Part shown: positions 35,195-42,217 of the stretch, piece after piece
Layout of the letters: every line of letters begins with the position of its first letter
Numbering within the stretch: position 1 is the first letter of the stretch
Assembly (NCBI RefSeq): GCF_018326005.1
Contig: NZ_AP021903.1
Coordinates: 6,135,501-6,199,500, forward strand
From: Pseudomonas sp. Seg1
Lineage (GTDB): Bacteria; Pseudomonadota; Gammaproteobacteria; Pseudomonadales; Pseudomonadaceae
Direction: 5' to 3'
DNA length: 64,000 nucleotides
Translations under genes and position numbers: made by a program
Notes under the pieces: generated by a model
What the model was told of the DNA's origin: nothing
The model's input: the letters and a program-made list of their open reading frames with translations, nothing else
Databases searched by the model: none

Positions 35195-36391
35195 ATGTCC
35201 CTGCCTAGCTTGCGCCTCAAAGCCAACGCCGACCGTCGCCTGCGCGCCGGTCACCTGTGGGTCTACAGCAACGAAATCGATGTGGCCGCCACGCCACTGC
35301 ACGGCTTCAACGCCGGCGATCAGGCGATCCTCGAAGCCGCCGGCGGCAAGCCGCTGGGCATCGTCGCGATGAGCCCGAACAACCTGATCTGCGCCCGCCT
35401 GCTATCGCGTGACACCAAGGTCGCGCTGGACAAATCGCTGTTGGTGCACCGCCTGAACGTCGCGCTGTCCCTGCGCGAGCGTCTGTTCGACAAGCCGTTC
35501 TATCGTCTGGTCTACGGTGATTCCGACCTGCTGCCGGGCCTGGTTGTCGACCGTTTCGGCGACATTCTTGTGGTGCAGATCGCCTCGGCGACCATGGAAG
35601 CGCATAAAGATGACGTGATCGCCGCACTGACCCAAGTGCTCAAGCCAAGCGGCATCCTTTTCAAGAACGACTCCGCCGCCCGTGACGCCGAAGGCCTCAA
35701 CCGTTACGTCGAAACCGTATTCGGTCTGGTGCCGGAGTGGGTCGCGCTGGAGGAGAACGGCGTGAAATTCGAAGCACCGGTCATCCAGGGCCAAAAAACC
35801 GGCTGGTTCTACGACCACCGCATGAACCGCGCGCGTCTGGCTCCTTACGCCAAAGGCAAACGCGTCCTCGACCTCTATAGCTACATCGGTGGCTGGGGCG
35901 TGCAGGCTGCCGCTTTCGGCGCCAGCGAAGTGTTCTGCGTCGATGCCTCGGCTTTCGCTCTCGACGGTGTCGAGCGCAACGCTGCACTGAACGGCTTCGC
36001 CGACAAGATGACCTGCATCGAAGGCGATGTTTTCGAAGCCCTGAAAGAACTGAAGGCCAGCGAAGAACGCTTCGACGTGATCGTGGCCGACCCGCCGGCG
36101 TTCATCAAACGCAAGAAAGACATGAAAAACGGCGAAGGCGCCTACCGTCGCCTGAACGAGCAAGCCATGCGCCTGCTCAACAAGGACGGCATCCTGGTCA
36201 GCGCTTCGTGCTCGATGCACCTGCCGGAAGACGATCTGCAGAACATCCTGCTGACCAGCGCCCGTCACCTGGACCGAAATATCCAGTTGCTTGAGCGTGG
36301 CGGTCAGGGCCCGGATCACCCGGTGCATCCGGCGATCGCCGAAACCCGCTACATCAAGAGCATCACCTGCCGCCTGCTGCCAAACAGCTGA
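35195..36391 (+). CDS. rlmI: Class I rRNA methyltransferase, RlmI-like
   Basis: A 398-residue protein with an N-terminal PUA domain (RLKANADRRLRAGHLWVYSNEID...) and a C-terminal SAM methyltransferase domain: GWFYDHRMNRARLAPYAKGKRVLDLYSYIGGWGVQAAAFGA, catalytic block VADPPAFIKRKKDM and SCSMHLPEDDL. This architecture is that of RlmI, which makes m5C1962 in 23S rRNA. ATG follows CCGGAG. It ends just before an intrinsic terminator and marks the left border of the accessory locus. Confidence 0.9.
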   Translation: MSLPSLRLKANADRRLRAGHLWVYSNEIDVAATPLHGFNAGDQAILEAAGGKPLGIVAMSPNNLICARLLSRDTKVALDKSLLVHRLNVALSLRERLFDKPFYRLVYGDSDLLPGLVVDRFGDILVVQIASATMEAHKDDVIAALTQVLKPSGILFKNDSAARDAEGLNRYVETVFGLVPEWVALEENGVKFEAPVIQGQKTGWFYDHRMNRARLAPYAKGKRVLDLYSYIGGWGVQAAAFGASEVFCVDASAFALDGVERNAALNGFADKMTCIEGDVFEALKELKASEERFDVIVADPPAFIKRKKDMKNGEGAYRRLNEQAMRLLNKDGILVSASCSMHLPEDDLQNILLTSARHLDRNIQLLERGGQGPDHPVHPAIAETRYIKSITCRLLPNS

Positions 36392-36403
36392 TCAATGCGG
36401 ATG

Positions 36404-36433
36404 ACGGGGAGCCAGCAGGCTCCCCGTTTGCTT
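36404..36433 (+). terminator. Intrinsic terminator after rlmI
   Basis: A perfect 10-bp stem ACGGGGAGCC/GGCTCCCCGT with a 4-base loop (AGCA), followed by TTGCTTT, starting 13 bp after the rlmI stop. It isolates the following locus from rlmI transcription. Confidence 0.82.
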
Positions 36434-36621
36434 TACGCCAGCCCATGCCAGTCAGGGCGCTATCTCTGCTTCAATAGTCGACACTTCCTACACTTGCTTT
36501 CCTACTGACGTGCAGGATATTTCCTTACGCCTTTTAATTATTGAAACTTAGCCTACAAAGTCCAACTCCAGCTAAAGATCGCTCCGACAAAATTACTGGA
36601 ATATTCCTACTTAATATCCAC
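36434..36621. other. AT-rich gene-free stretch upstream of the accessory locus
   Basis: By my count about 37% GC over 36481-36660, far below the flanking genes. No reading frame with a ribosome binding site was seen, no REP copy, no tRNA. It probably came in with the downstream locus and carries its upstream control region. Confidence 0.6.
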
Positions 36622-36649
36622 TTGCCAATAATCCATTACAAACTATTAT
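36622..36649 (+). promoter_or_regulatory. Predicted sigma-70 promoter for the small peptide gene
   Basis: TTGCCA (36622-36627) and TATTAT (36644-36649) are 16 bp apart, each matching the sigma-70 hexamer at five of six positions. The predicted start site near 36656 leaves a leader of about 45 nt before the 23-codon gene. Confidence 0.6.
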
Positions 36650-36655
36650 GAAGTT

Positions 36656-36671
36656 GTCACCACGAGGTGAC
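36656..36671. promoter_or_regulatory. Inverted repeat at the predicted transcription start
   Basis: Perfect palindrome GTCACC-ACGA-GGTGAC located at the predicted +1 of the peptide transcript. Outer bases GAAG and CTTC also pair with a small bulge. It could be a repressor site or an RNA hairpin in the leader. No regulator gene is adjacent. Confidence 0.5.
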
Positions 36672-36702
36672 TTCGACTATCAATGAACAAGGAGTTCACA
36701 TC

Positions 36703-36774
36703 ATGAAAACCATTTATCTGGAAACCAACAAAATCGCCAACCTGGCTTTTCTGGTTGCCCCTAAAGCCCGCTAA
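36703..36774 (+). CDS. 23-residue peptide, candidate RiPP precursor
   Basis: ATG to TAA, 23 codons, with a strong ribosome binding site AAGGAG at 8 bp spacing. The peptide begins MKTIYLETNK and ends FLVAPKAR; it has one Tyr (5), one Glu (7), two Asn, three Lys and one Arg, and no Cys or Ser. It is followed 8 bp later by a strong hairpin and then by genes for a SagB-type dehydrogenase, an AurF-type oxygenase and an MFS exporter. Size and position resemble minimal precursors such as PqqA, but I see no clear sequence match. A leader peptide for attenuation is the main alternative; it lacks runs of one codon. Confidence 0.62.
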   Translation: MKTIYLETNKIANLAFLVAPKAR

Positions 36775-36782
36775 ATAGGGCA

Positions 36783-36825
36783 GGACGCCGGGAAGTGCCG
36801 GCAACCCGGCGTCCTTTTCGATTTT
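36783..36825 (+). terminator. Strong hairpin with T tract between peptide gene and enzyme genes
   Basis: A perfect 10-bp stem GGACGCCGGG/CCCGGCGTCC, 12-base loop, followed by TTTTCGATTTT. It has the form of an intrinsic terminator, but the enzyme genes start only 32 bp after the stem with no clear promoter in between. A leaky terminator giving more peptide mRNA than enzyme mRNA is the likely reading. Confidence 0.8.
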
Positions 36826-36845
36826 ATCCAGAGTAAATAACCCAC

Positions 36846-37919
36846 ATGTACATAAACCCTTACCTGTTTATATTGCCGCGCTCGCCGGGACAAATAGTAT
36901 GGAACTACAAAGATCATACCCAGCATGAACTTGACCTTGATTATTCAATTCGGCTCACGCAACTAATCAACAACCCTGACCTGTTCGACACGCACAGCAT
37001 AATAGACACACAACTATTAAGTGCGGGCATCCTAACCGTTTCAAAAATAGACAATCCACAATGGGGTTGGGATGAACTGTCGAAGATCTACCATATCGGT
37101 ACGCAAAACATTCCCTGCGAACACACCCCCCAGAATATTCACGAGTGGTCCAGGCAATATCTTTCTCACTGCAACGAAGTCCTGGCGACCCCGGCTCCCG
37201 TGAAAGAACGCCAGCAGCAGGAAGCCGGGCAGAGCATCGCGTTGCCCCTCCCGCATGAATTGCGCGACGACAGCCTGGTTCACGCCCTGCTCCAGCGTAA
37301 AACCTGCCGCACCTATACCGGCGCAGCGATGACACTCGATGACCTGGGCACCCTGCTTTATCTTTCGCTCGGTTACCTGCGCGAGCGCGACGGGGACCGT
37401 GACGAAAGCATCGCCGACGATCTCGGCGCACGCCGCAGCAGTCCTTCCGGTGGCGGTCTGAACGCCTGCGAAGGTTTTCTGCTGGTGCAGAACGTCGACG
37501 ATCTGGAGCCCGGGATCTACGCCTATCAGCCGACCGACCATTCCATCAGTCGGGTCAATTCATTGCCTCAATCCGCGTTGGGGGTTTTGCTCGCAGGCCA
37601 GCACTTCATCAACAATCTGCCGCTGGGCCTGTTCATCACCGCCCGATTCGATCGGCTCTGGTGGAAATACGAGCACTCACGGGCCTATCGCATGGCATTC
37701 GTGGAAGCCGGTCATCTGTCGCAAACCTTTCAACTGGTCGCCACAGCACTTGGCCTCAACACCTGGTTGACCGGTGCGTTTGCCGACAGGCAAGTCGAAG
37801 CACTGCTCAAGCTTGAGGGAAGCGCGGAGCAACCGCTGTTCTTTGTCGGCTGCGGCGAAAGCGACGGCCAGGCGATGTGCCAGGAAATGCACGGACTGTT
37901 GCGCGAGGTACAAGCATGA
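36846..37919 (+). CDS. SagB/ThcOx-type FMN-dependent dehydrogenase
   Basis: A 357-residue protein. Residues about 1-90 resemble the winged-helix N-domain of SagB-type oxidases (NPYLFILP, LLSAGILTV), which in RiPP systems helps bind peptide. Residues about 140-355 are a nitroreductase-fold FMN domain with RRSSPSGGGLNACEGFLLV (196-214), DLEPGIYAYQPTDHSISRV and KYEHSRAYRMAFVEAGHLSQTFQLVATALGL; Lys274-Tyr275 matches the KY motif needed for azoline oxidation. In known clusters this enzyme turns azolines into azoles after a YcaO cyclase; no YcaO is present here. Weak ribosome binding site; early codons AT-rich. Overlaps the next gene by 4 bp. Confidence 0.85.
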   Translation: MYINPYLFILPRSPGQIVWNYKDHTQHELDLDYSIRLTQLINNPDLFDTHSIIDTQLLSAGILTVSKIDNPQWGWDELSKIYHIGTQNIPCEHTPQNIHEWSRQYLSHCNEVLATPAPVKERQQQEAGQSIALPLPHELRDDSLVHALLQRKTCRTYTGAAMTLDDLGTLLYLSLGYLRERDGDRDESIADDLGARRSSPSGGGLNACEGFLLVQNVDDLEPGIYAYQPTDHSISRVNSLPQSALGVLLAGQHFINNLPLGLFITARFDRLWWKYEHSRAYRMAFVEAGHLSQTFQLVATALGLNTWLTGAFADRQVEALLKLEGSAEQPLFFVGCGESDGQAMCQEMHGLLREVQA

Positions 37920-38893
37920 CAGTCTTGATTCCGGATCCGGCCGAAGTGCCTGTGTCATGGGCGCTCAAATTTACTTTGGGGGACTGGGACAGCCGCGCCT
38001 CGGTACGCACCAGCACCCACAACTATCAATTGCCGGACGACGTGCAGCAACAACTCGAAAGCCGCTACTGGTTTCCCCCCGCCTTCCTGCCTTATCTCGC
38101 TCATCCAGCGATCCAGGCCGCAGGCCGCGAGGTGCTGCACCGCCTGACCGCCAACCATCTGGTGTACTTTCTCGACTACACCACCCTGCTCGAGCATCGC
38201 ATCGTCAATCGCGCGGTTGAAGTCATCGCCCATCGGGAACTGCCCATTTATGTGCCGCTGGCGATGAAGCACGCAGCGCTGCAGCTCTACACCGACGAGG
38301 GCTACCACGCGCTGTTCTCCAATCGTCTCGCCGAACAGATCGCCACGCTCTATAACGTTGGCGGGCGCCCGGCGATACCCAAGCGCATCACGCGCATGAA
38401 CGCACTGGTCGCCCGTACCCCGGAAAAGCAACGTTCACTGACATGGTTTCTGCTCGGTTTCGTTTCGGAAACCATCATTGCCCGGGAACTGCTGGACGTG
38501 TGCCGCGACAGTCTCGTGTCCAGTGTGAACGACATGCTGCGCGATCATCTGGCCGACGAAGCCCGCCACAGTCGCTATTTCGCTGAAGTGTTCCATTACC
38601 TTTGGCTGTCCATGAACATTCGCCAGCGCACATTTGTGAGCAAAACGCTGCTCGAGATCATCGGCATTTTCTTCGAGGCCGACGAACGCTGGCTGCAACA
38701 GAGCCTGCGTGGAGCGGGCATTGCCGAGAGCGATGTACGAAATATTGTCGGCAGCATGGCAACAGTGCAGGCCAGCCGTGCGCGTGCAAAATCAGGCTCC
38801 ATCGCTACGCTGGATGCACTGCGCAAGGCCGGTTTCTTCGCCACGCCCCATAACCAGACACTTTTTTCCAAGGCAGGACTGATCGATGGATAA
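37916..38893 (+). CDS. AurF-type diiron oxygenase
   Basis: A 325-residue helical protein of the AurF (p-aminobenzoate N-oxygenase) family. All seven expected iron ligands are present with near-identical spacing: Glu93, Glu128 and His131 (DEGYH), Glu185 (SETIIARE), His211, Glu215 and His218 (HLADEARH). Relatives oxidise amines to hydroxylamine, nitroso or nitro groups, and some oxidise C-H bonds. Starts at the ATG overlapping the SagB-type stop (ATGA). The substrate is unknown; the neighbouring peptide or a product from it is a candidate. Confidence 0.87.
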   Translation: MTVLIPDPAEVPVSWALKFTLGDWDSRASVRTSTHNYQLPDDVQQQLESRYWFPPAFLPYLAHPAIQAAGREVLHRLTANHLVYFLDYTTLLEHRIVNRAVEVIAHRELPIYVPLAMKHAALQLYTDEGYHALFSNRLAEQIATLYNVGGRPAIPKRITRMNALVARTPEKQRSLTWFLLGFVSETIIARELLDVCRDSLVSSVNDMLRDHLADEARHSRYFAEVFHYLWLSMNIRQRTFVSKTLLEIIGIFFEADERWLQQSLRGAGIAESDVRNIVGSMATVQASRARAKSGSIATLDALRKAGFFATPHNQTLFSKAGLIDG

Positions 38894-40118
38894 AGGAAAA
38901 TCCGTGGTAACCCCCCGTCAGCGTCGCGGGGCTGTCAGCCTGTTGCTGGCGATGGTGCTGCTCGGCGCGTTCCCACTGGATGTCCTGCTTCCATCGTTTC
39001 CGGCACTGGCCGCGCACTTCCAGACAACCCCGGCGGACATCGCACTGTCGATCAGCCTGTTCGCCGTGGGCATCGCCTTTGCCCAGGTACTGATCGGCCC
39101 ACTGTCCGATACGATCGGTCGCAAGGGCTTGTTGCTCGCTGGCATGAGCGTCTCGATGCTCGGTGCACTTGGCTGCGTGATGACCGACGATTACACGCTG
39201 TTCCTGATATTCCGTGTCGTACAGGCAATAGGGTGCGGTTGTTTCGTGCTGTCCCAGGCACTGGTGCAGGATCTGTTCGAAGGTGAAGAGCGTGATCGCC
39301 TGCGTATCCTGATGGTCACCGCCAGCGGGATCTTCATTTCGGTGTCGCCACTGGCCGGCACCTTTCTACAAGCCACCCTTGGCTGGCGCGGCAGCTTCTG
39401 GGTATTTACCGCACTCGCGGCGGTCGTGCTCATCAAGGCCTGGCTGTTGCTGGACAACAGTCAGCCGGCCAGCAGTGGCATACGCTTGGGTTTCATTCAG
39501 TCGTACCGACGGGTACTGGGAAATTTCCAATCCGTCGGTTACTGGTTGATATCGGCGTTCGCCTTCGCCTGCCACTTTTCGTTCATCGTGATTTCGCCGC
39601 TGATTTTCATGGATCAGCTACAACTCGCGCCCTATGACTTTTCGCTGATTCTGCTGATTTACGGGGCTGCCTATATCGTCGGCGGCATTGTCGCCAGCGT
39701 GCTAAATCGACGCATCACCCCAGGCCGACAAATCATTACCGGGCTGAGCCTGATCCTGCTGTCGGGCCTGGCCATGCTGTATCTGGCCGCCCATCATGCG
39801 CTGGCGCCGACCACGGTGCTGATCCCGATGCTGATCTGCACGGCCGGCACCACCATCACACGACCGGCCGCCACCTCTCGGGCCATGGCGCTGTTTCCCG
39901 ACAACGCCGGCACTTCGGCCTCGGCCGGTAGCACCATCATTTTTATCAGCGGCGGTTTGATCAGCGCACTGATCAGTCTGAGCCCGGCCAATCTGCAAGC
40001 CACGCTGGGTTACAGTTTTGTACTGCTCAGTTGCGTCGCGCTGGCACTCAACAGCGGGATCAGCCGGCGCTTGAGGAGCGTTCAGGCCAGTGCGCTGGTG
40101 CAACCTGGCAGCGAATGA
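38886..40118 (+). CDS. Bcr/CflA-type MFS exporter
   Basis: A 410-residue, 12-helix drug/H+ antiporter of the DHA1 Bcr/CflA group: LLGAFPLDVLLPSFPALAAHF in helix 1, IGPLSDTIGRKG in loop 2-3, and FRVVQAIGCGCFVLSQALVQD. These proteins export small molecules such as bicyclomycin, chloramphenicol and sulfonamides, and often sit in biosynthetic clusters as self-resistance. It overlaps the diiron oxygenase by 8 bp and is the last gene of the locus, so it likely exports the product. Confidence 0.9.
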   Translation: MDKGKSVVTPRQRRGAVSLLLAMVLLGAFPLDVLLPSFPALAAHFQTTPADIALSISLFAVGIAFAQVLIGPLSDTIGRKGLLLAGMSVSMLGALGCVMTDDYTLFLIFRVVQAIGCGCFVLSQALVQDLFEGEERDRLRILMVTASGIFISVSPLAGTFLQATLGWRGSFWVFTALAAVVLIKAWLLLDNSQPASSGIRLGFIQSYRRVLGNFQSVGYWLISAFAFACHFSFIVISPLIFMDQLQLAPYDFSLILLIYGAAYIVGGIVASVLNRRITPGRQIITGLSLILLSGLAMLYLAAHHALAPTTVLIPMLICTAGTTITRPAATSRAMALFPDNAGTSASAGSTIIFISGGLISALISLSPANLQATLGYSFVLLSCVALALNSGISRRLRSVQASALVQPGSE

Positions 40119-40375
40119 TCCTGCCGGTCGTCATGCCACAGGCACCGTCGGCACTGGAACAATGCTTTGCGCCATTCCCTCCAGACGCCAGCGGTGTAGA
40201 ATCGGCTGATTCATCGCCATTCATCCCCCGGCGGGTTTATGAGCTCAAGCTGAGACCAGCGGCGATCCCGCAACGTCATCGGCAACTTCACGGACACACG
40301 GCCATTTCTGAGTGTTCCAGACGTCAATAGAAGCTCACTCCCCTTTGATACCTGATTAGCCGCCCGGAGTGCTCC

Positions 40376-42217
40376 ATGCCAGATTACCGCTCGAAAACAT
40401 CCACCCACGGCCGCAACATGGCCGGCGCCCGCGCACTGTGGCGCGCCACCGGGATGAAAGATGACGACTTCAAAAAGCCGATCATCGCCATTGCCAACTC
40501 GTTCACCCAGTTCGTACCGGGCCATGTGCACCTGAAGGATCTGGGCCAGCTGGTCGCCCGCGAAATCGAACGCGCCGGTGGCGTCGCGAAAGAATTCAAC
40601 ACCATCGCCGTGGATGACGGTATCGCCATGGGCCACGACGGCATGCTCTATTCGCTGCCGAGCCGCGAGATCATCGCCGATTCCGTCGAGTACATGGTCA
40701 ACGCCCACTGCGCCGATGCCATCGTGTGCATTTCCAACTGCGACAAGATCACCCCGGGCATGCTGATGGCTGCCTTGCGCCTGAACATCCCGGTGATTTT
40801 CGTTTCCGGCGGCCCGATGGAAGCCGGCAAGACCAAACTCGCTTCCCACGGCCTCGACCTCGTCGACGCCATGGTGATCGCCGCCGACGAAAGCGCTTCT
40901 GACGAGAAAGTCGCTGAGTACGAGCGCAGCGCCTGCCCGACCTGCGGTTCGTGCTCCGGCATGTTCACCGCCAACTCGATGAACTGCCTGACGGAAGCGC
41001 TGGGTCTGGCATTGCCGGGCAACGGTTCGACCCTCGCCACCCACAGCGACCGCGAGCAGCTGTTCCTGCAGGCGGGCCGTACCATCGTCGAGCTGTGCAA
41101 GCGTTACTACGGCGAGAACGATGAATCGGTATTGCCGCGCAACATCGCCAACTTCAAGGCGTTCGAGAACGCGATGATGCTCGACATCGCCATGGGCGGT
41201 TCGACCAACACCATCCTGCACTTGCTGGCTGCCGCCCAGGAGGCGGAGATCGATTTCGACCTGCGCGATATCGACCGTCTTTCGCGCAGCGTTCCACAGC
41301 TGTGCAAAGTCGCGCCAAACATCCAGAAGTACCACATGGAAGACGTGCACCGCGCCGGCGGCATCTTCAGCATCCTCGGTTCGCTGGCCCGTGGCGGCCT
41401 GCTGCACATCGACCTGCCGACCGTGCACAGCCGCAGCATGGAAGAAGCCATCGCCAAGTGGGACATCACCCAGACCACTGACGAAGCGGTTCACCACTTC
41501 TTCAAGGCTGGTCCTGCCGGCATCCCGACCCAGACCGCGTTCAGCCAGTCGACCCGTTGGGAAACCCTGGATGATGACCGTGAAAACGGCTGCATCCGCA
41601 GCTTCGAACACGCTTACTCGCAAGAGGGTGGCCTGGCCGTGTTGTACGGCAACATCGCGCTGGACGGCTGCGTGGTGAAAACTGCCGGCGTCGATGAGTC
41701 GATCCATGTCTTCGAAGGCAACGCGAAAATCTTCGAAAGCCAGGACAGCGCCGTGCGCGGCATCCTCGCTGACGAAGTGAAGGCTGGCGACATCGTCATC
41801 ATTCGCTACGAAGGCCCGAAAGGCGGCCCGGGCATGCAGGAAATGCTCTACCCGACCTCGTACCTGAAATCCAAAGGCCTGGGCAAAGCCTGTGCGCTGC
41901 TCACCGATGGCCGTTTCTCCGGCGGCACTTCGGGCCTGTCCATCGGCCACGCTTCGCCAGAGGCTGCGGCCGGCGGCGCGATCGGTCTGGTGCAGGACGG
42001 CGATAAAGTGCTGATCGACATCCCGAACCGTTCGATCAACCTGTTGGTCAGCGACGAAGAACTGGCTGCACGCCGGGTCGAGCAGGACAAGAAAGGCTGG
42101 AAACCGGTTGAGGTTCGTCCTCGCAAAGTGACCACCGCCCTCAAGGCCTACGCCCTGCTGGCGACCAGCGCCGACAAGGGTGCTGTGCGTAACAAGGCAA
42201 TGCTCGACGGGCTGTAA
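40376..42217 (+). CDS. ilvD: Dihydroxy-acid dehydratase
   Basis: A 613-residue Fe-S enzyme that dehydrates 2,3-dihydroxy acids in valine, leucine and isoleucine synthesis. Cluster cysteine blocks: [22 protein letters not shown] and [25 protein letters not shown]-terminal [24 protein letters not shown] follows CCCGGAG. A strong terminator follows 20 bp after the stop. It marks the right border of the accessory locus. The 257 bp upstream hold no other gene; TAGAAT near 40198 could be a -10 element. Confidence 0.97.

Follow-up and report, generated by a model that had tools for sequence, protein, structure and literature searches.

A probable YcaO-less ribosomal peptide pathway pairing a SagB-type dehydrogenase with an AurF-type diiron oxygenase in Pseudomonas

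The 64,000-nucleotide stretch of the Pseudomonas sp. Seg1 genome analysed here (contig NZ_AP021903.1, positions 6,135,501 to 6,199,500; hereafter the window, whose own numbering is used below) carries four adjacent plus-strand genes encoding a 23-residue peptide, a SagB/ThcOx-type dehydrogenase, an AurF-type diiron oxygenase and a major facilitator superfamily (MFS) exporter. Our comparative analysis indicates that this locus is probably a four-gene pathway for a ribosomally synthesized and post-translationally modified peptide (RiPP), of an undescribed type that operates without YcaO, and we hold with rather firmer confidence that the peptide is the substrate of both the SagB and the AurF enzymes. 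That two oxidative enzymes and an exporter act on the peptide had been proposed in a preliminary description of the same DNA, and the comparative evidence leaves this as the best reading. Together with its relatives, the Seg1 SagB protein would form a large family of nitroreductases in YcaO-less RiPP loci, in which natural variation already indicates the residues involved. The enzyme pair, a desaturase and a diiron oxygenase, would work on a 23-residue substrate small enough for synthesis, and a metabolite still to be discovered is probable in Pseudomonas that are common in soil and on plants. Such a pathway is apt to be overlooked in genome mining, since 23-codon genes are seldom annotated and the usual RiPP class enzymes are absent.

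A conserved gene for a probable precursor peptide

The precursor gene, MKTIYLETNKIANLAFLVAPKAR, occupies 36703..36774 (23 codons plus stop; leader residues 1-7, Ala12-Asn13 and a proposed desaturation site at Leu14) and has a counterpart of 21-26 residues, located 123-163 nt upstream of the SagB gene, in 110/110 Pseudomonas loci. These loci were collected with the SagB protein as query against 398 Pseudomonas genomes, 117 of which matched at E<=1e-30; loci were taken from 116 of them (G309 was left out) and from G031, giving 119 besides the Seg1 locus. Among the resulting 120, 110 are SagB loci with an MFS gene, from 108 genomes, and the unit is therefore present in at least 108 of the 398 sampled species genomes. 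L072 was kept among the 110 even though its contig stops short of the MFS gene, and the ten loci outside the family are L050, in which no SagB remained, and L076, L077 and L079-L085, which have other neighbourhoods. Besides, a scan of named genomes with a different query (the L068 SagB) yielded 80 loci, all from Pseudomonas and partly overlapping the first sample, and a peptide of leader shape was found in 80/80. The preliminary description had stated that homologous loci without an upstream peptide would speak against its proposal, and there were none (0/110 and 0/80).

The peptide gene is conserved at the protein level, which bears out the earlier claim that it is a real gene tied to the enzymes. 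The 110 loci encode 82 distinct peptides, and a Shine-Dalgarno match precedes the called start in 106 of them (all except L049, L061, L067 and L090). Synonymous change exceeded nonsynonymous change, with mean proportions of differing sites of 0.41 (pS) and 0.16 (pN) over all pairs of 87 23-mers, and the excess disappeared in the +1 and +2 frames (60 of the 87); because change is mostly synonymous, the reading frame is conserved as a peptide and not merely as a structured RNA. Moreover, the pattern IANLAFLVA occurred in 51/396 genomes, once in each, and every one of these genomes was SagB-positive.

The leader MKxIxLE is nearly fixed (Ile/Val4 and Leu/Met6 in 110/110, Glu7 in 109/110), Ala12 is present in 107/110 loci, and position 14 is restricted to Leu (97), Phe (5), Met (3), His (3) and Trp (2). 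From residue 15 to the end the sequences vary (AFLVAPKAR, ACLAVPPQR, AGLITPKSR, HCLVATKQR, AHLVKKTK and TQLAGPVKTASK, among others), and the C-terminus differs in both length and residue, ending for instance in PKAR, VKAK, KTASK or LGTLK; in the named scan, locus L232 of P. koreensis DSM 16610 encodes MKAITLEANKIANLAFLVAPKAR. Features expected of a RiPP pathway are found here, namely a short precursor gene kept beside modifying enzymes in 110/110 and 80/80 loci, a conserved leader followed by a varied core, in peptides called by a procedure that favoured the leader shape, and partner enzymes that differ between subfamilies.

The two oxidative enzymes and residue Asn13

The SagB-like protein (36846..37919) was assigned to this type in the preliminary description, and profile searches agree, with 66.8 bits for PF00881 and 126.1 bits for TIGR03605 (cut-off 78.4); all 50 aligned members match TIGR03605 at E<=0.001, and the narrower SagB_rel_DH_2 model (TIGR04511) stayed below its cut-off (162.4 vs 240). 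Structure comparison with a model gives the protein the fold of ThcOx and McbC, that is, a flavin mononucleotide (FMN)-dependent dehydrogenase of nitroreductase fold whose first 115 or so residues make up an N-terminal domain. When modelled in the whole chain, this domain is predicted to form three strands followed by helices, an order known from the peptide-binding RiPP recognition elements.

The assignment of the next gene (37916..38893, overlapping the SagB gene by 4 bp) to the AurF-type ferritin-like diiron oxygenases also stood, with 76 bits for PF11583 (gathering cut-off 29.6), although the model for 4-aminobenzoate N-oxygenase proper (NF045603) was not reached (63.8 vs 620). All seven metal ligands are intact in the Seg1 protein (E93, E128, H131, E185, H211, E215 and H218, as aligned with AurF), and all seven are kept in 96/96 near-full-length homologues. 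An AurF-like query matched 40 of 95 related genomes at E<=0.001, with 20 strong places in 19 genomes of the same genus, Seg1 included, and weak, remote matches in the other 21; at the 19 further strong places, AurF and MFS matches were found in 19/19 and SagB in 18/19. As noted in the preliminary description, YcaO, radical SAM, ATP-grasp and peptidase genes are absent, which holds within the conserved peptide-SagB-AurF-MFS unit.

The presence of the AurF gene is closely tied to Asn13 of the peptide. Asn13 occurs in 101/101 AurF-bearing loci, and of nine loci scored as AurF-less, seven (L059-L062 and L064-L066) form one clade with Gly, His or Ala at this position; the other two, L072 at a contig end and L086, in which SagB is also degraded, retain Asn13. 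The named scan gave the same picture, with Asn13 in 76/76 AurF loci and Ala13 in 4/4 AurF-less loci. The AurF-less sister clade has the same pathway in simpler form, with SagB, an MFS gene and peptides of 21-22 residues that end in Lys, such as MKTVILESKELAAFSLIGMPK and MAKIKLEHEVSAGHHTMLGTLK. A C-terminal Lys or Arg was considered as the AurF site and rejected, given that the peptides of this clade also end in Lys.

In the SagB tree (107 rows covering 101/110 family loci, built by a quick method with SH-aLRT support only; L073 is not in it), the AurF-less clade (99% support) is nested in a 97% group with 85 AurF-bearing rows, and more AurF-bearing rows lie outside. Since the clade sits inside AurF-bearing lineages, AurF and Asn13 vanished together, and to judge from the tree this joint loss probably happened once. 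The tree tool reported three changes of AurF state, and we counted one real loss because the other two correspond to the contig-end row of L072 and to the separation of the outer rows; we are unsure of the deep branching order, given long branches and a distant root. With probably a single event at hand, the association draws its weight from how constant Asn13 stays across deep branches, and not from many independent losses.

Proposed pathway and alternative explanations

In the pathway that we propose, the promoter would give a short transcript that mostly ends at a hairpin 3' of the peptide gene, so that the peptide would be made in excess over the enzymes because most transcripts stop there. 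To judge from its conservation, the MKxIxLE motif would be what the SagB-like enzymes of this clade recognize, probably by binding it with their N-terminal domain. The FMN enzyme would then remove two hydrogens, most likely turning residue 14 into an alpha,beta-dehydro amino acid, as the precedent of PflD (discussed below) suggests; the residues found there (Leu, Met, Phe, Trp and His) all have a CH2 beta carbon, and we regard desaturation by SagB at this particular residue as possible rather than probable. Analogy with PflD also led us to consider Phe at position 16 as the site of SagB action, but this position is variable in relatives (Cys, Gly, His, Tyr and others), and position 14 was preferred. 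The diiron enzyme would oxygenate Asn13, at the amide nitrogen or at carbon, or would require Asn13, as the joint loss of the two suggests; that it acts at or beside Asn13 seems to us about as apt to be right as wrong. Finally, a housekeeping protease may trim the peptide and the MFS protein may export the product, which is the least certain step.

Several points weigh against this interpretation. Modification of the peptide is a proposal drawn from sequence comparison, and export of a 23-residue peptide by an MFS protein would be unusual unless the peptide is trimmed. The unit has no protease gene to account for maturation, and neither has the pfl cluster (PMC12636437). Whole-chain superposition of the SagB model on ThcOx is poor (rmsd, root-mean-square deviation, of 16.7 A over 287 residues), and searches with the N-terminal domain against Pfam and Protein Data Bank profiles brought up no peptide-binding family, all matches being weak and unrelated. 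The association between AurF and Asn13 probably rests on a single evolutionary event, which makes for weak statistics. As for sampling, both the filter of the named scan and the peptide caller of the 110 loci favoured the leader shape; the caller weighted ATG, a Shine-Dalgarno match and leader shape, leaving residues 8 onward, Asn13 among them, unweighted (at L061 and L091 a later Met was taken as the start), so that the uniformity of the leader was partly selected for. In addition, 43 of the 80 named-scan loci are identical over 400 nt to loci already in the first set, and that scan is therefore a partial replicate and not an independent sample. SagB or AurF was split or partly missing by tblastn at several loci (for example L045, L049, L050, L086-L091 and L106), which indicates a dispensable trait, and from these sequences the trait seems to have been lost repeatedly.

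Among other explanations, the 23-codon frame might be a regulatory leader (an attenuator), whose translation would determine how often transcription passes the hairpin and reaches the genes for enzymes that work on a free small molecule. A terminator-like hairpin does lie between the frame and SagB in Seg1 and, by a crude rule, in 72/110 loci, but the same rule finds none in the remaining 38; furthermore, amino acids are constrained where synonymous sites are free (pS 0.41, pN 0.16), the conserved residues are scattered along the peptide without forming a codon run, and Asn13 tracks the AurF gene, all of which make attenuation improbable. In PEARL pathways, enzymes act on something attached to a peptide, and the Seg1 peptide could similarly be a carrier or scaffold for an attached substrate, or a small protein partner, that is then recycled. 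Its short length, the small-molecule type of the exporter and the conservation of its centre and leader would suit such a role, but Pfam finds no ligase among the three locus proteins and the variable length and last residue of the C-terminus are unlike a fixed attachment point, so that we consider a carrier quite improbable.

The hydrophobic centre and basic end of the peptide are known from some short membrane-active peptides and would agree with an unmodified bacteriocin, toxin or signal having the enzymes as unrelated neighbours; however, the linkage of the peptide to SagB and the association of AurF with Asn13 render this highly improbable. Most improbable of all is a remnant or variant of an azole pathway of the thiazole/oxazole-modified microcin (TOMM) type, in which a distant YcaO makes azolines that SagB oxidizes. 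It is true that the enzyme belongs to the SagB/ThcOx family and that the Seg1 genome has two YcaO-family genes, at 3.68 and 3.92 Mb (3680321-3681328 and 3918585-3919529), compared with 6.17 Mb for the locus, but there is no YcaO within the conserved unit. Azole formation is ruled out for the Seg1 core because residues 11-23 contain no Cys, Ser or Thr; from residue 11 to the end, these residues are also absent in 58 of the 101 AurF-bearing loci, the other 43 having 1-4 of them.

Returning to the proposed modification of the peptide by both enzymes, a broader picture can be drawn, although we think it somewhat less probable than its opposite. The SagB clade with the MKxIxLE leader would be a fixed, YcaO-independent desaturase whose partners have been exchanged, being AurF acting on a neighbouring Asn in one branch, none in another, and a carbamoyltransferase with or without a methyltransferase in a third; about a quarter of Pseudomonas species would make and export a small product of the AurF branch, in which an oxidized Asn sits beside a dehydro-Leu. 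If true, the AurF branch would provide the first ferritin-like AurF-type enzyme oxidizing a ribosomal peptide.

Genomic setting, distribution and relation to known systems

The promoter-like pair, the 23-codon gene with AAGGAG at 8 bp, the 10-bp hairpin and the overlaps of 4 and 8 bp were all found where the preliminary description had placed them. Upstream lies a TTCCTAC element (36604..36610), and TCCTAC occurs within 260 nt 5' of the peptide in 94/110 loci, against the 1.6 or so that its frequency in the window would predict. It is followed by a sigma-70-like promoter (36622..36649; TTGCCA at 36622-36627, a 16-nt spacer and TATTAT at 36644-36649), a block that by eye is conserved among close relatives. 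Where the transcript is predicted to begin, a short hairpin, GTCACC-ACGA-GGTGAC (36656..36671), has a counterpart in 110/110 loci, with a mean score of 15.4 vs 6.9 in shuffles and arms that vary with compensation (GTCAC/GTGAC, GTCGC/GCGAC), and may be an RNA stabilizer or an operator. The Shine-Dalgarno sequence AAGGAG (36689..36694) has the ATG 8 nt downstream, and the terminator-like hairpin (36782..36818) consists of a perfect 10-bp stem, GGACGCCGGG/CCCGGCGTCC, within 36783-36814, followed by TTTT. Rfam gave a single sub-threshold chance match over 36300-40400. The last gene (38886..40118, overlapping the AurF gene by 8 bp) encodes the exporter, whose MFS membership was confirmed (PF07690, 139 bits); it is Bcr/CflA-like, as had been suggested, but scores just below the cut-off of TIGR00710 (187 vs 200.9). 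In PHROGs there was no match for SagB or AurF, and the MFS protein fell in a family of unknown function.

The Seg1 locus lies at 6.17 Mb of a 6.63-Mb single-contig genome, between rlmI (end 36391) and ilvD (start 40376). Both genes flank the unit in 39/49 long family loci and 70/80 named loci, and neither was in the DNA retrieved for the other 10/49. Because rlmI and ilvD flank most loci, we favour long residence at a single site, with losses, over a mobile-element origin, which was rejected. DNA across the site was used to probe 19 genomes, 16 of them without a SagB match in the 398-genome search, two from the AurF-less branch (G017 and G021) and G103, which has a SagB of another branch. In three of five probed sites retrieved, the rlmI-ilvD gap is 263-275 bp, and G103 (L260) and G003 (L261) carry there a lone MFS gene (43-46% identity) without a peptide; G103 has its other-branch SagB elsewhere (L076), and G003 had no SagB match in the 398-genome search.

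At this level of sampling, the family seems to be restricted to Pseudomonas, as searches outside the genus gave no such unit. Among the best 120 of 590 SagB homologues, all close ones with a named source were from Pseudomonas, and matches at E<=1e-25 were found in 4/369 class-level and 15/398 phylum-level genomes; Seg1 itself is counted in each set, and the phylum-level one also includes four other Pseudomonas genomes. In the 10 genomes from outside Pseudomonas, the SagB matches had 32-38% identity and in nine cases covered just the C-terminal part; tblastn found no AurF or MFS relatives in the 3.6-4 kb around these 10 matches, and no leader-shaped peptide was seen upstream of the six on the plus strand. 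The AurF query had no match outside the genus among the same-order genomes searched. Within Pseudomonas, distant SagB genes stand beside a carbamoyltransferase gene at L076 and L080 (by Pfam), at L077, L081 and L085 (by clustering) and also at L079, with a tetratricopeptide repeat (TPR)-methyltransferase and an MFS gene in addition at L080; these loci carry other peptides that are conserved and share the leader shape (MKRVTIEPTLNNQSNDAYQTP... and MRKINLQTRLTALSNNAYN...), and the loci are possibly another undescribed RiPP family.

No SagB-AurF peptide system turned up in searches of the open-licence PubMed Central literature, and the pathway is apparently undescribed. With TOMM RiPPs, whose oxidases include SagB, McbC and ThcOx, it shares the TIGR03605 family and the ThcOx/McbC fold, but the Seg1 unit lacks YcaO and many cores lack Cys, Ser and Thr. 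Cyclodipeptide oxidases of the AlbAB type act on cyclic dipeptides and have no precursor gene, and their Z for the SagB-like protein was not above that of generic nitroreductases. The arylamine N-oxygenases AurF and CmlI share about 20% identity with the Seg1 enzyme, whose gene adjoins a peptide gene in a unit without polyketide synthase or non-ribosomal peptide synthetase genes. Pyrroloquinoline quinone (PQQ) and pantocin/microcin C type pathways have, like the Seg1 locus, a very short precursor and a small exporter; nevertheless, a Pfam search confined to the three Seg1 proteins found neither a radical SAM enzyme nor PqqB/C/D or an E1-like enzyme. The likeness to pantocin or PQQ drawn in the preliminary description was not borne out, the signature enzymes of these systems being absent from the locus, and the nitroreductase domain of PflD is the closer precedent (PMC12636437).

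According to its authors, the PflD nitroreductase domain of a Pseudomonas RiPP cluster converts Phe7 into Z-dehydroPhe and a multinuclear non-haem iron-dependent oxidase (MNIO) domain hydroxylates the adjacent Asp8; they call nitroreductases in YcaO-less RiPP clusters rare and functionally uncharacterized, and suggest that others may form other dehydroamino acids (PMC12636437). The MNIO-nitroreductase fusion of PflD type is present at L084 (PF05114 plus PF00881, by Pfam) and L083 (of equal length and clustering with L084), and over the C-terminal domain these proteins are distant homologues of SagB (35-38% identity). The Seg1 SagB protein differs in having PF00881 without PF05114, hence no MNIO fusion, and the locus differs from the pfl/pos clusters in having no MNIO, HEXXH enzyme or nitrile hydratase leader peptide (NHLP)-type leader and in combining an AurF-type diiron enzyme with a peptide of 21-26 residues. 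Altogether, both systems come from Pseudomonas and use a nitroreductase-fold dehydrogenase without YcaO, and the two oxidations on neighbouring residues described for PflA (dehydroPhe7 and hydroxyAsp8) would have their parallel in the two proposed here for the Seg1 peptide (PMC12636437).

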